Source: Diphasiastrum complanatum
Taxonomy: Eukaryota > Streptophyta > Lycopodiopsida > Lycopodiales > Lycopodiaceae
Reading direction: 5' to 3'
DNA: 64,000 nt
Assembly (NCBI GenBank): GCA_029204225.1
Contig: CM055097.1
Coordinates: 6,715,676 to 6,779,675, forward strand
Shown here: positions 26,822 to 61,800 of the stretch, piece after piece
Numbering within the stretch: the stretch's first letter is position 1
How the letters are laid out: every line of letters starts with the position of its first letter
Notes under the pieces: model-generated
Databases searched by the model: none
What the model saw: only the letters and a program-made list of their open reading frames with translations
Told to the model about the DNA's origin: nothing
Made by a program: the position numbers and the translations under genes

Positions 26822-26825
<4 letters not shown>
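22851..26825. other. No recognisable gene
   Basis: AT-rich sequence with only short open frames. Around 23430-23830 blocks such as TTAACCTA and CCTACAA recur in both orientations and may be the ends of a decayed TIR element, but I could not define termini. Nothing else supported. Confidence 0.4.

Positions 26826-26873
<48 letters not shown>
26826..26873 (+). repeat. (AG)n microsatellite
   Basis: About 24 uninterrupted AG units. Unlike the tracts in the 46.9-47.6 kb region it is not flanked by the LINE 3' end module. Confidence 0.95.
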
Positions 26874-46200: not shown

Positions 46201-46899
46201 TGACATGTTGAGACTAGGCAGGGTGCAAATAGGGCAGCTTGAAGTTCGTTCGGGTAGGTAAAAACAGGCAGGTGGGTAGCAAGAAGAAAGGGCCAGCAAT
46301 TGGGTAGGAAGAAAGTGAAATCAGCAGGAGAAAGAATGCAGGCTTGTAATAGGCAGGTAGAGAGGTAGGGAAATGCGCCAACTAGTCAGATGGACACAAG
46401 TAGTAGGCGGTCTCCAAAATGTAGGAGAAATCGTGAAGGATCCAATGATGGCAATTGGCGATGATGGAGGCGAAAGATAGAGATCTACGCAGGTAGGCCA
46501 ACAATGGAGGTCAGAGAAGAAGAAGAAGAAGAAGCTTTATTAATGTCTTTTCCATGCCAAAAGGCATATAAGACTAAGGAAATACATGTCAAGTATGTGG
46601 TAACCGTGGAGCGTGTAAACGCCTCCAAAAACTATAATAAAGAAAAAAAAGGAAACATCTAGTACAAGTTAAGATAACTACATAAATGATAATCTCTGTG
46701 CATGGTAGTCAAATGTGTCCATGTCAAGATGCCAGGTCTGTACTGGCGCTGTAGAAGGATGTAATGAGAGCTGTAGCATGAGGAAGTGCAGGAGCCCGCT
46801 GACGTCGCCCGTGAACAGAAGCATGTATAGTGTGTCTCTGTGTAAGAGGTCTGGTAGGGCGTGTAACTCTCGTGACTGCCTGAGGCTGGGTGATGCGTC

Positions 46900-46981
<82 letters not shown>

Positions 46982-47525
46982 TTTATTAATGTCTTTTCTA
47001 TGCCAAAAGGCGTATAAGACGAACAAGTGCATCAGATAAAAGTGGAACCAAGACGGAGCAATGCCGTCAACAACATAACTAAATCAAAATTAACTAAGAA
47101 GAGGATAATGTCCAGGATTATATGGTACGTAGACCATTTACAGACTCAACTGGCATCTCTTTAGTGCTCTAACTCTCTCACTAACTTTGAACAGTCTCAA
47201 ATATCTCATTAATAGCAGCAGGTTTAATATCTACGAAACGAATGATACCATCCTTGTAGATCAACTGCTTTCCATTCGTTAGAGCCTCCTGTTTTACTTT
47301 CTTCCGTTCTTGAACCTGAATGAAAGTAAGGTCTTCATCTAGGTATATCGTGGTGCCTCGCAGTGTAGATCTCTTCCCTAGCGCTGCATGACGACCAGGG
47401 GCAGATGCAAAGCGTATAACAAGAGTACTTGGATCTCTCTTAGGCCGCCATGCAGTATCCATATCTTTGTGGTGGTGTTGAAGACTCTCTTCAAGAAACT
47501 TTTTAGCTTCACCAACAAATGTGAG

Positions 47526-47611
<86 letters not shown>

Positions 47612-50600
47612 TATTTAACGTCTTTTTCCATGTCATAAGGCATATAAGACCAAACAATACATCAAAGAAATGGAAATGAGACAGATCGATGCCGTCAATC
47701 AACAACACTAAACAAAAGAGATTAATGGCCAGGATTATATGGTGCAAAGACCATTTACAGATTCAACTGGACATCTCTTCAATTCTCTAAGTCTGATCAA
47801 TCTCAGATATCATTATGACATATATCTATTTAGTTTCAACTAAAGGTTTAGCGTCAACAAACCTGATATTGCCATCTCTATATATTAAGCGTCTCCCTGT
47901 TTCCTTTGCATCCTGCAGGGCCTTTTTGCATTCCACAACTTGGACAAATGTAAGATCTTCATCCAGGAAGATCTTCGTATCTTTTAGCCATAGATGCACA
48001 GAAACACGTTTCTGAGGAGATGCGTTTCGGAGACCGCATTTCGGAGAAACACGTTTCTTAGACCAGAATCGTACTAATTTTTTTTTTTTTTTTTTGGAAA
48101 AATAGCTTATGGCTGAAATAGCGTTTTGCCTCTCAAAAGTGCAGTAGATGGGGCACAAATAGATCTTATTTTCAATAGCTATTTGGTTGTTATTTGCTCT
48201 GGTTGTGGTAGCCCCCCGGTGGGGGGTTTGGGGGGCAACGCCCCCCAACGGTAAGGCCTCTTCATGATTTGGCCTTTCAACTCCCTGAGCGAAGACCCAC
48301 TTACTGGGACCATCCGTGATCGTAACGAACAGGCTAGAGGTTAGTTTTGAATTTTTATCCTTGACAGAACCCAACATGGATTAATGCACCTGAACTGGAC
48401 CATCCTGCACCCGAAACAGTCTGGGACCATCTGTGATCATAACGAACAGGCTAGAGGTTAGTTTTGAATTTTTATCCTTGACAGAACCCAACGTGGATTA
48501 ATGCACCCGAACTGGACCATCCTGCACCCGAAGTAGTTGGCAAACTACATAGTAATGATGCTCTTAATTAGAGCTTTCATCTGATACCCATATTGCCCAA
48601 AAAAAATTTAAAAAAAAAAGGTTTCTGGAATTTTTTTGCAATTTTCAGAAACACATTTTTGAGCCGCGTTTCTGACCGCGATTTGGAACGTGTTTCAGAA
48701 ACGCAGTGCATCTATGCTTTTAGCTTATGTCTCTGATGTAGTACCTCACGCCTAGACTCCAACGAAGTGAAGCACAGGATAAGAGTGCTAGCATCTTTCT
48801 TACGTCAAGTTGAGTTCAAACCATTGTAGTGGTGCTGGAGATTAGTTTCCAAGAATCCCTTGGCCTCCTTAAGGGCATCTTGGGAATCCTGGACACCTCT
48901 GACACGAACATTAAGAGCCTTTTGCTCTCGCAGCCTGCTGAGAGAGAGAGAGGGTAGTAGGTAGCGTGGAGGAGAGGAGCAGAATTGTGAGCAATAGAGA
49001 CAGTAATCGCTGGCTCAGGCAGGATTAGAGGGGCGCAGATAGTAGCACAAGTAGAGCGCCGACTGGAAGCAAGCAGCTATGGAGGCAATAGGCAGTAAGA
49101 TAGAGAGAAGAGATGGTAGTTCTTAGTCCCCTTCAATGAAAATCCTAAAACCTGCAAGGAAACCACACAGATCATAAAAGGAAAGATTAGGTAAAAAAAG
49201 AAAAGCACTAGTCCCACAAAGGCAGGAAAGTGCTCTGATACAAAGTTATGAATCGAATCACAGATTTTAGCATTAATGAAGCATAAAGATTAGATATGAG
49301 GCAACAAAGACTTGTGAGCCTTAGTGTGGGATGTAAAAGTGGAATAGAGCCCAGATTTGGGTGATGTTCATACTTTTGCTTTGTTCTTTTGTTATCTAGG
49401 CATCATTGGCTCTAGATCTTCTCCTTATGAGGTTGATCTTCTCAAGAGAGGTGAACGATGTATTAAAATGTACTAGCTATAGATCTTAATCAATCTTCAA
49501 AATCACTCAGCGCTCTTGAGAAGCAAATTACACTTCATGAAGAGCCATTTCATAAGCATGAACCATATTCTTAAAAAGGGACATATGAGACATTTCTGGA
49601 CAAGCTTGAAGACTGTGCCTTCATCCTTGGACATTTTCTGGTCCATATTGCCCTACAATGCGAAGAAATTGAAGGAGAGAATCTGGAAACCACATGCATA
49701 GCTATTGAACCTTATCTGTTAACATTATAGGAATAGCTTGAAGTATTTGTTTGATAATTTCTGTAGCCAAGTCTGTTAAGAATATAGGTTTGGTAGTCGT
49801 TAACTTGTAGTCTTTGCTATGTGGTGGCTATACATAGGGTTGGGTTTCTTGTGGTAATGGCAAAACAATTAGTGTGGCTTGCATGTTAAACATGTTCGTA
49901 CTTAACTTATTTTCAAAATTTCCTTTGATTTAGTCAGCACAAGACGTTTCAAAGCCTTCAGAACGTTTTCGGAGTTGAAAAATATTGCTCTAGAATGTAA
50001 GCAAGCTTTTTTTGTTGATATTATGGTTTGCAGATTTTTGCAATGATAGTATTTCGATGCGATGTGTTACTTCTCCTAGTTCCAATTGGGTTGACGCTTT
50101 TGTTGGTATGTGTTCATAGTACATACTTCTTGACATTCGATTGATTTCTCGTTAGATGCTATGTTGAAGGAGTTTAAATCCTCCATCTCATTCTCGACTT
50201 ATGCATTTTCAAATATGAAGTAGCAAGAATTGTGATAGTCACTTGCATTTTATGTTTCAATTCATTCTTTGGCATAATAAGTTAATCCAATCGCATTTGC
50301 TTATTAATGTTGCATTATAAAACTCTTTTGTGTCAATTCATAAAATCTCGACATGTACTTGCTAGGAAAGCAAGATAGCAAGGGTGCCAGGGGACAATGC
50401 AAACAAAAGCATCCCAAGCTATCAGAAAGGTCCATCCATGCAAAACATCTTGAACATGAACCAATTTCACAACCCAAGCCAGTCATATGCCCTGAGAGGC
50501 CTCATGAAAGCATCAGTAACATGAACTTCATAGGTTGTTGAGACATAAACATGGACATTGTCCCAACATGCGTTGTTGTGAGAAACCGCAAAAGAATGAG

Positions 50601-53600: not shown

Positions 53601-56600
53601 GGACACATCTTTCTCAAGATATTACACGTCGAAGTTTTTGCATCAACGAGGTTCAAGACTAGTTTTGTGTTGTCACTTTTGTCTTTTTGTGTCTATTTTT
53701 GGGGATCTTCACATGCTTGTTCTTCTTATAGGATTTTGAGTAGTATAAGCTCAATTTTGCTTTTTTCAAGTTTTTATTATTATTTTTAACTTCATCGCTT
53801 TTGTGCTTTTTGCATCCCTTTGGTGATATTTTTGAGCTCTTTTTTTGACTACTTTGGCGAAGAGGTGATTGATCATAAGTGCGGTAGTTGTCAGCTTTCA
53901 TGGGGTCCTCGCCTTTATGGATAGGGTGAATGAGGTTTGTAAACCATGGAGAGGGAAAATCAGAGGTGACAGCTCGGTTGAATAGAATGGAGAGGAAGGG
54001 TGAGAGGATGTCGGGAGCATACTTTAGAAGTTCAGCCTCTAGCTCATCAATGTCTTTGGCTTTATGGAAATGGAGTCGTGTGATGGCCTTCTCTATAAGG
54101 TCATCAGTGAATATGGCAGAAGTATCTGTGAGACGAGAGGTGGGAAGAGAAGGGGTATATGGGATGGTGTACAATGATGTGACATATGTGACCCAAGTGT
54201 TGAAGTCTGTGATCCGTGGTGGAGGTGACCGTGGAAGGAACTTTTTCCAGAATGAACCTAAAGAGGAACTAAAGAGGTGATCCATCATATTCTTACCTTG
54301 GCTAATCTCATATACAATTTTCTTTTTCCTGGTGAGTAGACACGAGATATGGTTTTGGCCATATGAGGGAGATGGGAGCGAGTATATACGGAGGTGGGTG
54401 CATTCCTATTGTGAACACGTTGGGGCATTCTCAGTTTTTTATTGATTTTTTATTTGAAAAGGAGCTAAAGCGTAAACCTAGGAGTTTATGCACCTGAACT
54501 GGACCATCCTGTACCTTAAATATTCGGCAAACTACACAGTAATAATGCTCTTAATTAGAGCTTTCATCTGATACCCATATTGCCCACAAAAAAATCAAAA
54601 AAAAAAAAACACGTTTTTGAGCGTTTCTACTAAAAACCCAAAACACGTTTCTGGACTGCGTTTCGAAACGTGTTTTGAGAATCGTAGTGCAACTATGGTG
54701 GCATGCATGTTTGAGGATGAGAAAATATCAGCTGAACAATTTACATGCTGTTTTTAATATGAAACAGATCTCAAAAATGGGAACAAATGTTACAATTGGA
54801 TGTCTTTAAACATGTTCATATGGACAACTGGCCATCTCAAGGTGGCAAGATCACCAGGGCAGTGTAATAGGAAAACTCTCGGAAGGTGCTACTTGGAAGT
54901 GAGCAGAATAATGTTACAAAGATTAGGCTATAAAACATTTTGGAACTTAATTCCTGAGGAAGCATCTATGAGCTAAGTTGTGCTTCAATTTGTTGCCTTA
55001 GGTAATCTGCTTGTAAATTTTTAGAAAGCCTTTGCCTTCTTGTAGGACAGCTCTTGATGTACTCCTGCAGATGATCTATGATAAAATCAGTTCAATGAAA
55101 CTAGGGTGAAGCTTTTAGAACAAGTTTGCAATCAGTGTAGAACGTTGCCAGGGTCCAGGGAAAAGTCTAGCCTATTCTGAAAAACTAAGCATTTCTCTCC
55201 TTAACTGTCAACACTGGTGCCTGGTTTATAGCGGCTTTTTCTCAAGGCCCATCACTTTCTTTGTTGCAAGTTGTGATAGGTTAAAACTGAAGGATTGTGC
55301 ATGGTTTGCTACAGACCAAATCCATTTCTTTTTGGGATGCTGTGAAATCCTGCGCAATAATGGCACTACTGAGCATTGGTAAGCAAGTTATTCATCTGTG
55401 CTAAATTTGGATTATAACGATAAACTGAGATGATCACAATTGATCGTAAGTTTTGTATACTTTTATTTTATGTTCAGTGCCACCAGTGTAATTTTTTTGA
55501 AGTCATATGAATTTTTTTTCAGTGGCGACAGTTTTGGTGGACTCTGTTATGTGGCAACGATGGCTCTGGCCGGAGATGGAAGTTTTTTGGTTCAATACCT
55601 TCTTAAACAGAAGTGCAGAGTGGGGTGTATCCTTTATGCTGTTGATACTTGTAGACATTAAGCACTATTCAGCTGATCAAATTTCACTTTATGTCTTCTG
55701 CTGTCATAAAACCACTTGAAAAAACAGGTTTTCTAATGTTTTGTGGTAAAACTTTATAATCTTTTCGTCCACATACAAAGTGATAATTATAAAAGAATGC
55801 TGCACTGTCTTGAAGTAGACATTGGAATCTGAAGTGCTTGGTTTATAGCCATGATCGATAAGAGAAGTATTGACCCTTTGAAACCATGCTTTAGCTTCAA
55901 GCCATAAAGTGCTCTATGGAGTTTACATACATGATTCTTTTTGCCTTCGATAGTATAACCTTCGGGGTGTATCATGTAACTGTCTTCTTCGAGAATATGT
56001 GTTTACTTTCATCAACCACAGGTCTTTCCTTTTCATTGGTATTTTACGTCAGCCCTTCCACGTTCAATGCTAGCAGCTTATCCTTTGGCATTGGTAAGTC
56101 CACATTCCATGAAGAATGTTTAGGTTTATTGAAAATGCTATAGAATGTTCAAGCCATTGATCAGCTGAATACTGATATGCTGCTTCATGAATGTGACCCA
56201 TGCTGTTTCATCAACCATTTTTAGAACCTTATTTCACTCTTTTAATATATTCTTGTATCAGTTAGTTAACACTTTCCTTTCTAAATTACGATTTTAGTTT
56301 TGAGACAATCGATCTATGAAGAATAATGAGCAATATCTATTGTAAATATTCTTGGAGTTTTGGAACAAACCATAGAACCCATGGTTCTTAGAACCGTGGG
56401 TCTTGGGAACCGTGTTGGGAACCATACCACGGTTCATGTGACATGAACCGTGGTACGGTGCTTGTAGTTAATTAATCAATTAATTATTTTTTTTTCCCAA
56501 TTCTCCCCCAAAACCCTCCCAAGTCATTTTTGGTCCTCATTTCATAAATTTCACAGATTTCACAAATGGTCCTCTGATTTGAAATGTTGAACCAGATTTC

Positions 56601-58833
56601 ACAGATTTTTGGCATCTGATTTCACAGATTGAACCAGATTTCACAGATTTCACAAATGGTCCTCTGATTTCACAAATGATTTCACAGATTTCACGAGATT
56701 CACAGATTTTTTTTGGCATTTTTTTGGGCTATTTTTCGAGGTGGGAAGCAAAAACAATTAATTAATTGATTAACTGTACGGTTCACCACAGTTCTAGGCA
56801 AAAAAATTTGTGAGCCGTACGGTTCTCAAAACCGTGGTGAACCGTGGACGGTTCATTAATTTTATGAAACAAACTCATTTCTAATATCATTTAAACCAAT
56901 GTTTTTGTTGGAATGTGGGTTATTGCTGTGTTAAAATAAAAATTATATCTTTAATATTTTTTTTCCAAGGTTTTTATTCCAAAGCATTTTTAAATTCTCT
57001 CAACAGAAATACTCTAAAGGCGGTTTCATGGTTCACTATTTCAACTCTGTCTGAGAAACTTTCTACTTTTGCAAAAAAGTAAATTCTGGAGGAGCTGGTT
57101 AGGACTTTTTTTATCTGTAGGAGGTTAGGAGTTTGACTTCAATTCACAACACATATGAGGGATACAAGAGGGAAAAAATGAACATAAATTCCCAACTAAA
57201 GTGTGAATCATAGTACCCACCGTTCTCAGAACCATGGGGTGAACCGTACATAGATGCCCAGAAACGCGTTTTGGAAACCGCATTTCTGAGAAACGCGGTT
57301 CTTAGACCAGAATCGTTTCAAAAAAAAAAAAACTTTTTTTTTGGAAAAATATCTTATGGCTGAGATTTTTTTAGGGGATCAATGGTCAAACCAGCGTTTT
57401 GCCTCTCAAAAGTGCAGTAGATGGGGCACAAACAGATCTTATTTTCAATAGCTATTTGGTTGTTATTGCTCTGGTTTTCAATAAATGCTCAGCCCTAGAA
57501 ACAGGGGGTTCAGGGGGCGGCTTCCCGATGGGGGGTTTGGGGAGCAATGCCCCGGTAGACCCTGGCCCCAACGATAAGGCCTCTTCATGATTTGGCCTTC
57601 CAACTCCCTGAGCGAAAACACACTTACTGAGACCATCTGTGATCGTAACGAACAGGCTAGAGGTTAGTTTTGAATTTTTATCCTTGACAGAACCCAACAT
57701 GGATTAATGCACCTGAACTGGACCATCCTGCACCCGAAACAGTTGGCAAACTACACAATAATTATGCTCTTAGTTAGAGCTTTCATCTGATACCCATATT
57801 GCCCCAAAAAAACCAAAAAAATAAAATTAAAAAAAAAACGTTTTTGGAATTTTTTAAAATTTTCAGAAACGCATTTCTGAACCGCGTTTCTAAACGCGAT
57901 TCTGAAACGCGTTTTGGAAACGCTGGTGCATTTGGGAGTTGCACGCGAAGTTCACATCATCTATGTGCCCCCCATGTTATGGACTAGTTAAGCCCTGTGC
58001 TCCCCTAACCCTAATTGGTAGTTGCCTTAGTTAGTATACCTTTAGGTACTGGGCCAGTTATCGTCAAGGGCATGTTCTTATGGGACCCAGATACCCTAAT
58101 GTGCTTAATCTCTAGAAGATTCTAGTAAGGGCCTCGATAGTGTATATAGGGCTATCATTTAGTCATTAGGTGGAATATTGTAGTGCTTCTCTTCTAATAG
58201 GTATTTGCTTGGGCTCTTCGTGGGAGATCTTTTGTCTATGCTTAGCTACTGCTTGTAGGGCTCTAACCATTCTTCTTCATTGATATCAATTTATTTGATT
58301 GAGTTCATAAGAGCACTTTCTTGATCCTGTTCCATTTGATTTTGTCTTTATTGTCCATTGCTGCCCCGAATCACATGCCTCCATCCTACTCCACCATCGC
58401 TGCCCCTGCCTGTTGCTTCTGCCTGCCATCACTGCCTCCATCGCTACTTGCTTCCGCCTCTTGCTGCCCGTTGCCTCCATCGTTGCTGCACACCTTTTCT
58501 ACTTTCTACTCTATTTATTTTCTGCCCATGTTACTCACCGCTGACGCTCACATCCCTGCCCACTATCTCCCTGTTATTATATGTACAATTCATGGCTTTG
58601 TCTAGGACATCATTATATCTTGGTTTTATACAGTACCTGCTCTTCTTATATAGCTAGATCTTTGGTTGTCACTTTGAGTCCACTGAGTTTCTTTTTGAAC
58701 TCAGCAGATGTTTGGAGACTAGTTTTTTCCATTATATGATTTTTGGATACATGTTTCTTTGCTCCTACATAGGGTATCACACTTTACATGTACTATTTGG
58801 TCTTATATGCTTTTTAGCATTCAAGAACAATAA

Positions 58834-58885
<52 letters not shown>

Positions 58886-61800
58886 ATGCTCTCCATGTCC
58901 GTCCACCCTTCCCTCCATCTCCTCACCTCCCTCCACCCCTCTTGCTCCCTCTACTACACAACCCTCCCTCTCCTGCTTGTGCTGCGCAACATCAGCAAGA
59001 GGCTACTACACGTTGTTGGTGCTGGTCCTGAGGCTGCAACAATAACCGACTGCTGATGCTGTGCTGCAGCCGCCCCCAAAAAAATTCCTCTCCTTATGAT
59101 TCTTCTTTCCTCCACATACTCTACTTCTCAAGAACCCTACACACATACAAAAGCAGTGGAATCTTAACGTGCAGCCAATAGGGACGAGATGGAAATGCCC
59201 CATCTTAGAGAGGTGAATATGAAGCTCCAAAAAGATGTGGACACATTGAAACAAGAACTTCAAGCTCATTTTTGCTACACTGGAATCATCCACTATATCT
59301 AGGTTTGCATTTTAGGATGCGAGATTGGGTTGGACAGGGATCTCTTTATCATAGCTTGCTACTTTCCTCCAAAGTCCTGTTTCTTTGCGGAAGACATTAG
59401 GTCTCCTTATGCTGACCTATCTATAGACATTGTCAGATTCACTGGTCAAGGGTATGTTCTTCTCACAGGCGACTCTAATGCCAGAATTGCAGCAAGTCAG
59501 GTTGACTTTCATGATATTGTTGATTAGTTATGCAGACGAGCCATTGATTGTGTTGATATGGAAATTACTAGGACTTTAACTGACTCACTAGGACCTTCCA
59601 CTAGATATGGTGAGCATTTGTTGCAGCTCAGAGAAGCCCATGAGTTAACCATTTATAATGGCCTAGCTTGTTGGCTTGATTCGAGCAACTACATGCCATC
59701 AGATATTGGTGGACATATTGTTATTGACTATCTCATGGAGTCCCCATCTTTTATCCCATTGATCTCACACTTCCAGATCCTTCCTACTACCCTTTCTGAT
59801 CACTCATTGTCCTTCCACATGGGTTCTATTTCGACCTCACCACCTCCGCCCCGTTCCTTCATTGATAGAGCACCCAAATATACCTTGCTCACCCCTACAT
59901 TGCAACCTACCAAGAGGCCCTTACTTCATTATTACACCACTTTCGACATGACAGTCCACTGGAGTCAGTGGTCACAGGCCAATTTTCTCACCACTTCACT
60001 TCATACTGCTGCCTTAGTATCCTCTCCATCGAAACCCTACAGACGTCCATCCACATCATCTCGTCCTGTTCGGCCTCCCTAGTTTAATGATGAGTGTTGT
60101 TCCGTACATTCCTATGTTGCCCATGTATGCCTACATGAACCACTTGCCCTTCATACTACTTGTCGATCTCTCCACTGTACACTCCGCTGCAAAAAACGTG
60201 CCTATGAAGAACAAGAAGGGAAACGCCTTGTTGACTCTCTATATAGTTCATCCCTCGTGCCCCACCTCCCCTCCTTGATGATTTACGTATCTAGGCCACA
60301 TATGCCATCTCATTATACACTCTACCCACTGACTCACCCATCTCCATCTCCCCACGCCTGTGTGAATTTTCACCTCTATCATGGTCCTAGAGGCCATTAA
60401 GAGAATGAATACATGTCGTACCAGAGACATAGAGGACCTTGAGTCATAATTGTTGATCCATGCTGCAACCATACTCTCATCTATCCTAGCTATTCTACTC
60501 AATCGGGCCATGTCTTTGGTTTCCATCGTCGTGGTGCACTAACATCATGCATCCCATTCATAAAAGTGGTTACCCCTAATGTTGTCATATAGGATTGATT
60601 AGGATTATTGGGCCCTGCTTGCATGCTAATTCTAGGGGCCTTTACGTATATTTAGTAAAGTGAAATCAGAATTTAGTTAGACTCAAGTTCAAGATTCTAG
60701 TGCTTGATTTGGAGCACAAGTTTTGCGATAGATGGGTGTTGGGTGCATTTACCTTATAGAGAGACAATATGCAATTGCTTTTAGTTGCTTTTGCTTTAGC
60801 TTTTGTTTTTTGGCATAGACTATTGTCTATAAGTATGTAGTGCACCCTAGTCCATTGTGAATGGGACATAGTTGGAGTACATCTCATCATCATTGCTTCA
60901 TCAATGTTGTTTGTGTTCTCTTCCATTTATGTGTATCACTATTGTCTAACAACAATAGGAATCTTGTCTTGGGCAACTTGTACAAGCAAGTCAATTTTCT
61001 AACACTCCCGTTGCCTTTCCGAATTTTCCTTTTTTATGCTCGATATGGTCCTTGTAGCCATTAAGAAGATGGAAACATGTTGTGCACGAGATGTCGAGGA
61101 TTTGGAATTTGAGCTCCTAGTTTTTCTCATGAAGCATTCTATCCCCTACTCTTATCAATGAATTTTATTTATAGGTATGTAAGTGGCTAAGAACCCTAGC
61201 CTAGATGGTTCTAGAAAGTCACCTCCCTTCTCTTTAAACTTCGGTAGAAAATTGTTCTCTCCCTTTTTCAAATTCAAATTGTATCATCATCCTCAAATTG
61301 ATGACCCTCCCTTGTTGATCTACCTAATTCTGATTGTGAATCAGGATTTTGTAGTCAAGAGTCTTTGACCATAAAGTTCCATGATCTTAGAACTGGTCAT
61401 TTGGACCATTAACCCAAAAGGGTGAAACATTGCCTCTCCCCCCCAAGGTAAAACTTTCAATAAAGAATCGACCGACTTCTAAGTTGTCTCTCCATGAGGT
61501 AACCCCTTCCATACGACCAAGTAATTAGGAGTTACTCGAATTTTCAAATGGCGTTCTTGCTTTCCAATAACTTTTTAGTTCATGGTCTTGAGAATTCACC
61601 TTCTCCAACTCTACCAGGCCCCCTTGCACAAGGTTGTTCTCATCATGCTTAATCTTACTTAAATAAAAAATTGGATAAAATTTAACGAAACTAGGGGGTT
61701 CAAGCTTGTAATCAACTTCTGCAATTTTTTGTGATTGTCCACACTTCACAATAATGAGCTGAGAACGTTGAGCAATTACGGTTATGTAGATCCTTAGAGA

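Follow-up and report, generated by a model that had tools for sequence, protein, structure and literature searches.

Long interspersed nuclear elements with a conserved 3' hairpin, their ORF1-only relatives and (TC)n tracts in the genome of Diphasiastrum complanatum

Four units with a common 3' hairpin

The window analysed here is a stretch of 64,000 nucleotides from Diphasiastrum complanatum (C6:6715676-6779675, in an assembly of 1.74 Gb and 5,176 contigs), and it carries four units, U0 to U3, that share a short 3' module followed by pyrimidine runs (Table 1). All four had been described in the original prediction as members of one family of long interspersed nuclear elements (LINEs), and all four were found, yet they are not one element: U0 is the 3' end of a LINE coding for endonuclease and reverse transcriptase (an EN-RT LINE), and U1 and U2 belong to elements that carry the first open reading frame only (ORF1-only elements). 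For U0, recognisable homology to another LINE locus (L018; fetched loci bear L numbers) begins 49 bases past the TC run of U1, the exact 5' end being unfixed. The predicted tails of 23-39 TC units or a TTC run hold for U1, with (TC)37, for U3, with (TC)23, and for U0, which has (TTC)n, but not for U2, whose run is longer.

Table 1. Units U0 to U3 and adjoining pyrimidine runs (window positions)
Feature	Positions	Strand	Remarks
U0 tail, (TTC)n	46508..46533	-	
U0 3' module	46534..46574	-	GTCTT-ATATGCC-TTTT-GGCATGGA-AAAGAC-ATTAATAAAGC; fold -13 kcal/mol, z -3.8
U0 body	46575..46902	-	5'-truncated 3' end of EN-RT LINE
(TC)37	46903..46977	-	separates U1 3' end from U0
U1 3' module	46980..47020	-	inner stem with one mismatch
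U1 body	47021..47522	-	5'-truncated ORF1-only element; ORF1 C-terminal domain 47184-47522 and 3' untranslated region
~(TC)43	47523..47607	-	separates U2 3' end from U1 5' end; run given as 47523-47608
U2 3' module	47608..47650	-	AAGACGTTAAATAAAGC; inner stem partly broken
U2 body	47651..48939	-	5'-truncated ORF1-only element, L022 family; split by a miniature inverted-repeat transposable element (MITE) at 47989-48716
(TC)6	48940..48951	-	adjoins U2 5' end
U3 body	58602..58799	+	family and 5' end unassigned
U3 3' module	58800..58835	+	inner stem ATGCT/AGCAT
U3 (TC)23 run	58837..58883	+	

The stem is longer than had been predicted, GTCTT pairing with AAGAC outside the 5-bp inner stem, and the module reads, in order, GTCTT, two bases, the inner stem, a loop of four bases, the stem partner, about four bases, AAGAC and RTTAATAAAG (in short form, GTCTT, inner 5-bp stem, loop, AAGAC and TTAATAAAG). 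The minimum free energies of U0, U1 and U3 (RNAfold) correspond to z-scores of -3.8, -2.7 and -3.2, U2 folds poorly (z -0.9), and the same two-part hairpin, with z-scores of -3.0 to -3.7, is formed by genome copies that belong to other families (L014, L034 and L009). A search of the genome for CTTATATGCC-N4-GGCAT-N5..20-AATAAAG returned 4,070 exact matches against 0 for the reversed control, and the pattern GTCTT-N14..34-AAGACNTTAATAAAGCT, in which nothing but the outer stem and the TTAATAAAGCT terminus is fixed, returned 5,437 against 0 for its own reversed control. The abundance of the module is therefore not a matter of chance. Eight pyrimidines follow AATAAAG immediately in 3,544 of the 4,070 matches, the other 526 being without them, and the absence of a poly(A) end, which had also been foreseen, is borne out for the commonest end, its poly(A) version (AAAAGACATTAATAAAG-N0..6-A8) having 0 exact matches in the genome.

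The predicted replacement of ATGCC/GGCAT in U0 by ATGCT/AGCAT in U3, a change that keeps pairing, is present, and the expected excess of paired changes was found in the inner stem, which covaries above both shuffles and slid-stem controls. Across an alignment of 32 distinct modules (four from the window plus 28 of the 29 distinct locus modules, the remaining one being identical to U0), two-sided changes occur at all five inner-stem pairs and amount to 18 cells where shuffles give 4.2; the inner-stem covariation score is 0.213 against 0.126 in shuffles, 0 of 500 of which reach 0.213, and slid stems score at most 0.078. The alignment shifts the outer stem in L044 and U3. Three of the pairs owe their changes to the GCACC and GTACC families, with four to six sequences each, and of the remaining two one owes its change to U3 alone and one to L044 alone, so that the excess goes back to a small number of events at the level of families and does not represent 18 independent changes. 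The second position of the inner stem is unpaired in 7 of the 32 sequences, the U1 type included.

EN-RT LINEs and ORF1-only elements

The supposition that full-length members encode an endonuclease and a reverse transcriptase (RT) is right for the longer relatives and wrong for U1 and U2, which are ORF1-only elements and not truncated EN-RT LINEs. What had been called a LINE family is indeed a LINE group with a conserved 3' hairpin, but really a superfamily, made up of EN-RT LINEs plus ORF1-only elements. In L009, L010 and L012 the order is ORF1, an apurinic/apyrimidinic-type (APE) endonuclease with GDFNAR, an RT with YADD and a zinc-knuckle-like C-terminus; the endonuclease of L010 matches Exo_endo_phos_2 (E 1.9e-7) and the RT of L012 matches RVT_1 (E 1e-26). 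In L009 and L010 this C-terminus is followed by the module and a pyrimidine run; no module was found in L012. The EN-RT frames are broken in the copies read. Inner stems differ between LINE families, and three different ones occur within L009. The proteins scanned gave no RNase H match, and the combination of APE endonuclease and RT that they do have is not unique to the L1 clade; a phmmer comparison of the RT with PDB ranks R2 (74 bits) above L1 ORF2p (51 bits), which does not settle the clade. L009, on contig C7, and L010, on the small contig C623, carry a near-identical head-to-tail stretch with three modules each and may represent an uncollapsed haplotype or a segmental duplication. Two further stretches of the window (53659-54405 on the minus strand and 59528-60082 on the plus strand) look by eye like RT and endonuclease fragments from this LINE group, with no Pfam match alone.

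U1 has 40 near-full matches in the genome at 92-100% identity, itself included (40 of 2,498 candidates scored). The U1-type elements in L005-L008 begin with a 5' part in which CTGCTCCATCG-like repeats abound, continue with ORF1 and a short 3' untranslated region and end in the module, all within about 1.6 kb, and no endonuclease or RT frame was seen in between. Imperfect CTGCTCCATCGCTGAGGCTG-type repeats stand upstream of ORF1 in U1-family elements, for example at 7215-7600 of L005, and are possibly promoter or leader repeats. Further ORF1-only families are represented by L032, by L041, L030 and L039, and by L022, with which U2 groups; overall, ORF1-only elements measure about 1.2-1.7 kb. Their 3' end is common to them and to the EN-RT LINEs, and their ORF1 is homologous to that of LINEs (49% identity between U1 and the L009 LINE), ORF2 being absent.

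The ORF1 of the ORF1-only elements is under purifying selection. Over a stretch of 116-117 codons, the ratio of nonsynonymous to synonymous substitution rates (dN/dS) is 0.23-0.33 for four U1 copies against L032 and 0.29 for L039 against L041; it falls to 0.06-0.11 for U1 copies against L039 and L041, pairs in which synonymous sites approach saturation (dS 1.9-3.0). Most comparisons with L022 and with the LINE are saturated, and pairs within U1, which differ at few positions, give ratios of 0.29 to 0.93. Inheritance from autonomous ancestors could in part explain the low ratios found between families; since U1 and L032 are both ORF1-only, their ratio argues for selection after the loss of ORF2, an argument that an unsampled EN-RT LINE with a closer ORF1 may weaken. 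The ORF1 product has a coiled-coil-like region, with weak matches, and a conserved C-terminal domain, a layout suggestive of L1 ORF1p; an assignment to that protein was not adopted, no profile match being convincing. An AlphaFold model of the ORF1 fragment of the window alone, from the single sequence, reached a mean predicted local distance difference test score (pLDDT) of 59.8, too poor for a structure search.

A partner of the short interspersed nuclear element (SINE) type was also considered, on account of tRNA-like sequence upstream of the module in L043, L066 and L016, and was rejected; we read that sequence as an inserted terminal-repeat retrotransposon in miniature (TRIM) of the long terminal repeat type, and a tRNA-related head joined to the LINE 3' end was not found. 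In all three loci ARAGORN finds a pair of tRNA-like sequences separated by about 260 bp (tRNA-Thr, one in L043 being tRNA-Leu), within a TGTTGG...TAACA repeat and with a purine tract before one copy. The TRIM-like element occupies L016 204-536, L043 418-751 and L066 608-940, and its tRNA-Thr-like repeats resemble Helenus TRIMs, a plant family of which type is characterised, by the accessible part of a 2024 paper, in Selaginella moellendorffii only (PMC10886601).

Tails, 5' junctions and arrays

The tails sampled come from 42 sites among the first 43 in the list, every one of them on contig C1 (L013-L052, 40 loci), and the pattern used demands CT after AATAAAG. A pyrimidine tail is present in 42 of 42, that of L040 including two A's, and by script 33 of the 42 have a TC run of at least five units. 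At least one TTTC unit lies directly 3' of AATAAAGC in 29 tails; wherever a tail has both (TTTC)2+ and (TC)5+, TTTC is the nearer to the element (21/21), so that the templated tail appears to be (TTTC)n. In five of the 42, the TC run gives way without a break to another dinucleotide repeat, which is also seen in compound microsatellites. The idea of a (TC)n tail in place of poly(A) thus stands as regards the pyrimidine end and the lack of poly(A), but the (TC)n is in large part target-site sequence and not only tail, because TC runs meet 5' ends too.

This is clearest in the U1 family, whose junction set comprises 21 distinct loci (U1 of the window, L005-L008 and 16 distinct loci among the 20 in L053-L072, which include four near-identical pairs) and covers 24 of the 39 other near-full U1 matches. 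If a TC junction is defined as a run that touches the 5' end or stops no more than about a dozen bases short of sequence recognisable as the element, 12 of the 15 determinable junctions qualify (L005, L007, L008, window U1, L053, L055, L057, L060, L061, L064, L068 and L070); six of the 21 were not determinable (L054, L059, L062, L066, L069 and L071). Five of the twelve (L005, L008, L055, L064 and L070) follow sequence with neither module nor LINE homology in 300 bases, six (window U1, L053, L057, L060, L061 and L068) follow another element's module or a decayed one, and in L007 a composite sequence precedes the run; in L064 a short non-TC stretch lies between two TC runs. The elements start at differing points beside TC, which argues that TC is not simply their own leader. 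Elsewhere, 5'-truncated copies of other families in L035, L037 and L039 follow a TC run preceded by unrelated sequence, in L039 by a (CTAA)n run, and both TC-bearing and TC-free 5' ends occur outside the U1 family. Within the window, U1 starts at the TC run of U2, U2 starts at (TC)6, and U0 follows the TC run of U1. Three loci with the TRIM insertion (L043, L066 and L016) were not used as junctions, and three others were discarded by eye, namely L015, where the upstream flank is the MITE of the window, and L013 and L019, which translation indicates to be internal deletions.

In a genome-wide check on very short copies, the pattern (TC)5, TCTCTCTCTC, at most 30 bases before the CTTATATGCCTTTTGGCAT stem has 115 matches, many overlapping, with 26 distinct places among the matches listed and about 20 after removal of apparent duplicates; the (GA)5 and (TA)5 controls, GAGAGAGAGA and TATATATATA, within the same distance of the stem, have 0 matches each in the genome, and the (AC)5 control, ACACACACAC, has six, at three places of one duplicated site with a TC run intervening. 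The count covers TC-bearing copies and does not give their share among all short copies. Given the (TC)5 matches against none for (GA)5 and (TA)5, TC in the strand orientation of the element thus marks 5' ends, be the runs microsatellites or older tails.

LINE-related sequence continues 3' of 8 of the 42 sampled tails, within 15 bases in seven, and in the same orientation in all eight. As 15 of 200 random 150-mers of the window also have a LINE match, 8/42 is by itself a modest excess, and the weight therefore falls on the orientation and on the start at the tail boundary. Continuation in the same orientation recurs in L005, L007, L008 (from base 38), L009 (two joints), L010 and the window (two joints). 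Looser settings add weak continuations in L016, L027 and L028; those of L015 and L035 were judged to be simple-repeat matches and set aside, and 3' of the U3 TC run there is a weak match in proline/serine-type sequence. A duplication of at least 10 bases was found in 0 of 20 U1-family loci (16 distinct), a search whose 5' stretch of 1,100 bases misses some truncated 5' ends. In another comparison a 16-bp match in L007 was accepted as a duplication, and candidates of 9-12 bases (L023, L028, L036 and others) and a 25-base AC-repeat in L007 were not. Few convincing target duplications are expected if the duplications lie within the repeat.

Probable insertion into (TC)n tracts, related systems and neighbouring features

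Taken together, these results make it probable, in our judgement, that the genome harbours a superfamily of stringent-type APE LINEs with ORF1-only passengers, which prefer insertion into (TC)n microsatellites. The system is real, abundant and coherent; that the RT recognises the hairpin is what we infer from the sequences, namely from the covariation and from a hairpin common to EN-RT and ORF1-only elements. The element RNA would end in the bipartite hairpin, UUAAUAAAG and C(UUUC)n, and the LINE RT would bind the hairpin. The APE endonuclease would nick a (TC)n/(GA)n tract on its GA strand, at a putative position, and the GA 3' end could then pair with the pyrimidine end of the RNA and prime reverse transcription. 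Template slippage would presumably produce the (TTTC)n beside the element, the remaining (TC)n on both sides being target DNA, and ORF1-only elements would be mobilised in trans by the LINE RT. Each new copy would adjoin a TC run and so offer a landing site for later copies, giving rise to head-to-tail arrays such as U2-U1-U0. We put forward more tentatively, as a possibility about which we keep real doubts, that this constitutes a self-made habitat, in which insertions leave pyrimidine tracts for the next ones and a separate, long-lived ORF1-only lineage, its protein under selection, exploits the same RT by means of the hairpin.

Several observations weigh against insertion into (TC)n by a hairpin-reading RT. 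As for the hairpin, further pair types show no excess (9 against 8.6 in shuffles), and the constancy of the outer stem is no evidence, that stem having been required by the search pattern in all locus rows; ORF1, for its part, has no convincing family match in Pfam or PDB. By script, 9 of the 42 tails have fewer than five TC units, one of them (L040) being a parsing miss. Three of the 15 determinable U1-family junctions are without TC (L006, L058, set by eye, and L067), and at least L025, L031 and the first unit of L050 seem to have genuine 5' ends that lack it. In L007, a 16-bp duplication of ordinary sequence brackets an element adjoining an older TC run. Automatic breakpoints in the mixed sample, for which 42 modules yielded 34 (seven alignments reached the locus start and one reference was too short), have TC in only 4 of 34; most of the 30 TC-free breakpoints are alignment breaks between divergent families, or deletions, and not element ends. 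An earlier list of 32 candidate breakpoints had TC at three (L035, L037 and L039), and the rest were not counted, because alignment breaks cannot be told from ends in divergent families. In view of the mixed-sample result we lowered our confidence slightly, from good to somewhat less good, and targeting is to be understood as a preference at most, measured in the U1 family only.

An ordinary LINE inserting at random targets, with (UUUC)n(UC)n as its own RNA tail and with 5' TC arising by nesting in older tails, would explain the pyrimidine tail in 42 of 42 sampled copies whatever the flank (the pattern having demanded CT), the six of 12 TC-bearing U1-family junctions that follow another module, and the TC-free ends of other families in L025, L031 and the first unit of L050. 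We regard it as unlikely, since five of the 12 junctions, together with L035, L037 and L039, are preceded by sequence without LINE homology, one would expect elements to nest in TC runs by chance only very seldom, and five of the 42 runs continue into another dinucleotide repeat. Still less probable is template jumping, by which a whole array would arise in one event: on reaching the 5' end of an RNA, the RT would switch to the UC tail of a second one, and the TC joints would be tails and not targets. This accounts for the uniform orientation of all arrays seen (8/8 in the sample; L005, L007, L008, L009 and the window), yet leaves unexplained the TC runs preceded by unrelated sequence, and in L007 an element that has a duplication of its own was inserted next to a TC run older than itself. 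To a (TC)n that belongs to the element itself at both ends, serving at the 5' end as promoter or leader, we give hardly any credence; the L007 run does lie inside the duplication on the 5' side, and ORF1 opens within a few bases of a TC run in L009 and L010, but TC meets many 5' truncation points, even the edge of the hairpin.

The components of the system have known parallels, and no plant case combining them was found. Kojima and Fujiwara are said to have described, in 2004, Tx1-clade elements directed at (TC)n (Kibi) and (TTC)n (Koshi), and we know of no ORF1-only partners of microsatellite-targeted LINEs. HAL1 (half-L1) of mammals, derived from L1 and ending in poly(A), is ORF1-only. Like HAL1, the elements described here are ORF1-only and have the LINE 3' end in common; unlike it, they form several families, have a pyrimidine end and occur in a plant. 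The likeness is one of description, and ORF1 has no match to L1 ORF1p. SART1 and TRAS1 target telomeric repeats; a short tandem repeat target is thus a shared trait, while telomeric repeats, membership of the R1 clade and a poly(A) end set them apart. Silkworm SART1 requires its 3' untranslated region and ends in poly(A), as given in the available part of PMC3747384. In the accessible portion of PMC4640811, target-specific LINEs fall mostly in early-branching, Tx1 and R1 groups, the Tx1 elements carry an APE endonuclease, and the fish element Togen, close to the restriction-like-endonuclease group NeSL, is (TG)n-specific. Insertion into a short-repeat microsatellite is common to Togen and the present elements, which differ from it in their APE endonuclease and in their plant host.

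Among plants, the available sections of a review on plant L1s (PMC3747384) list 224 of 233 flowering-plant L1 families as ending in (A)n, with no other 3' repeat. By the same sections, monocot L1-clade LINEs and ZmSINE2/ZmSINE3 have in common a 3' hairpin with compensatory changes, which Ohshima reads as stringent recognition, proposing that ancestral plant L1s were stringent. The present system likewise shows a plant LINE 3' hairpin with compensatory changes, common to non-autonomous partners. It differs in that the monocot hairpin has a conserved CGAG flank and UCU loop, in that the monocot partners are tRNA-derived SINEs and those here ORF1-coding elements, and in the (TC)n preference proposed here, no target preference being mentioned for the monocot LINEs in those sections of PMC3747384. 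Literature searches, outside which most subscription papers lay, brought up nothing in titles or abstracts on plant LINEs that end in (TC)n or target it. The system would link, in one plant-type LINE, two questions, namely whether plant LINE RTs read a 3' hairpin and how an APE LINE gains a microsatellite preference; moreover, the purifying selection seen in ORF1-only families suggests that ORF1 has a preference for the RNA encoding it, even where ORF2 is absent, and the system could supply TC microsatellites in a large genome.

As to neighbouring features, the MITE-like repeat inside U2, which has a related copy at 57266-57931, has inverted ends (CATAGATGCAC / GTGCATCTATG) and is flanked by an 8-bp duplication (CTTTTAGC, at 47981-47988 and 48717-48724), which together suggest a hAT-type MITE. 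It contains a 117-bp tandem duplication (48304-48532), and part of it, judged by eye, also interrupts L015. A plain (AG)24 microsatellite at 26825-26873, with no module adjoining, is a TC run without an element.

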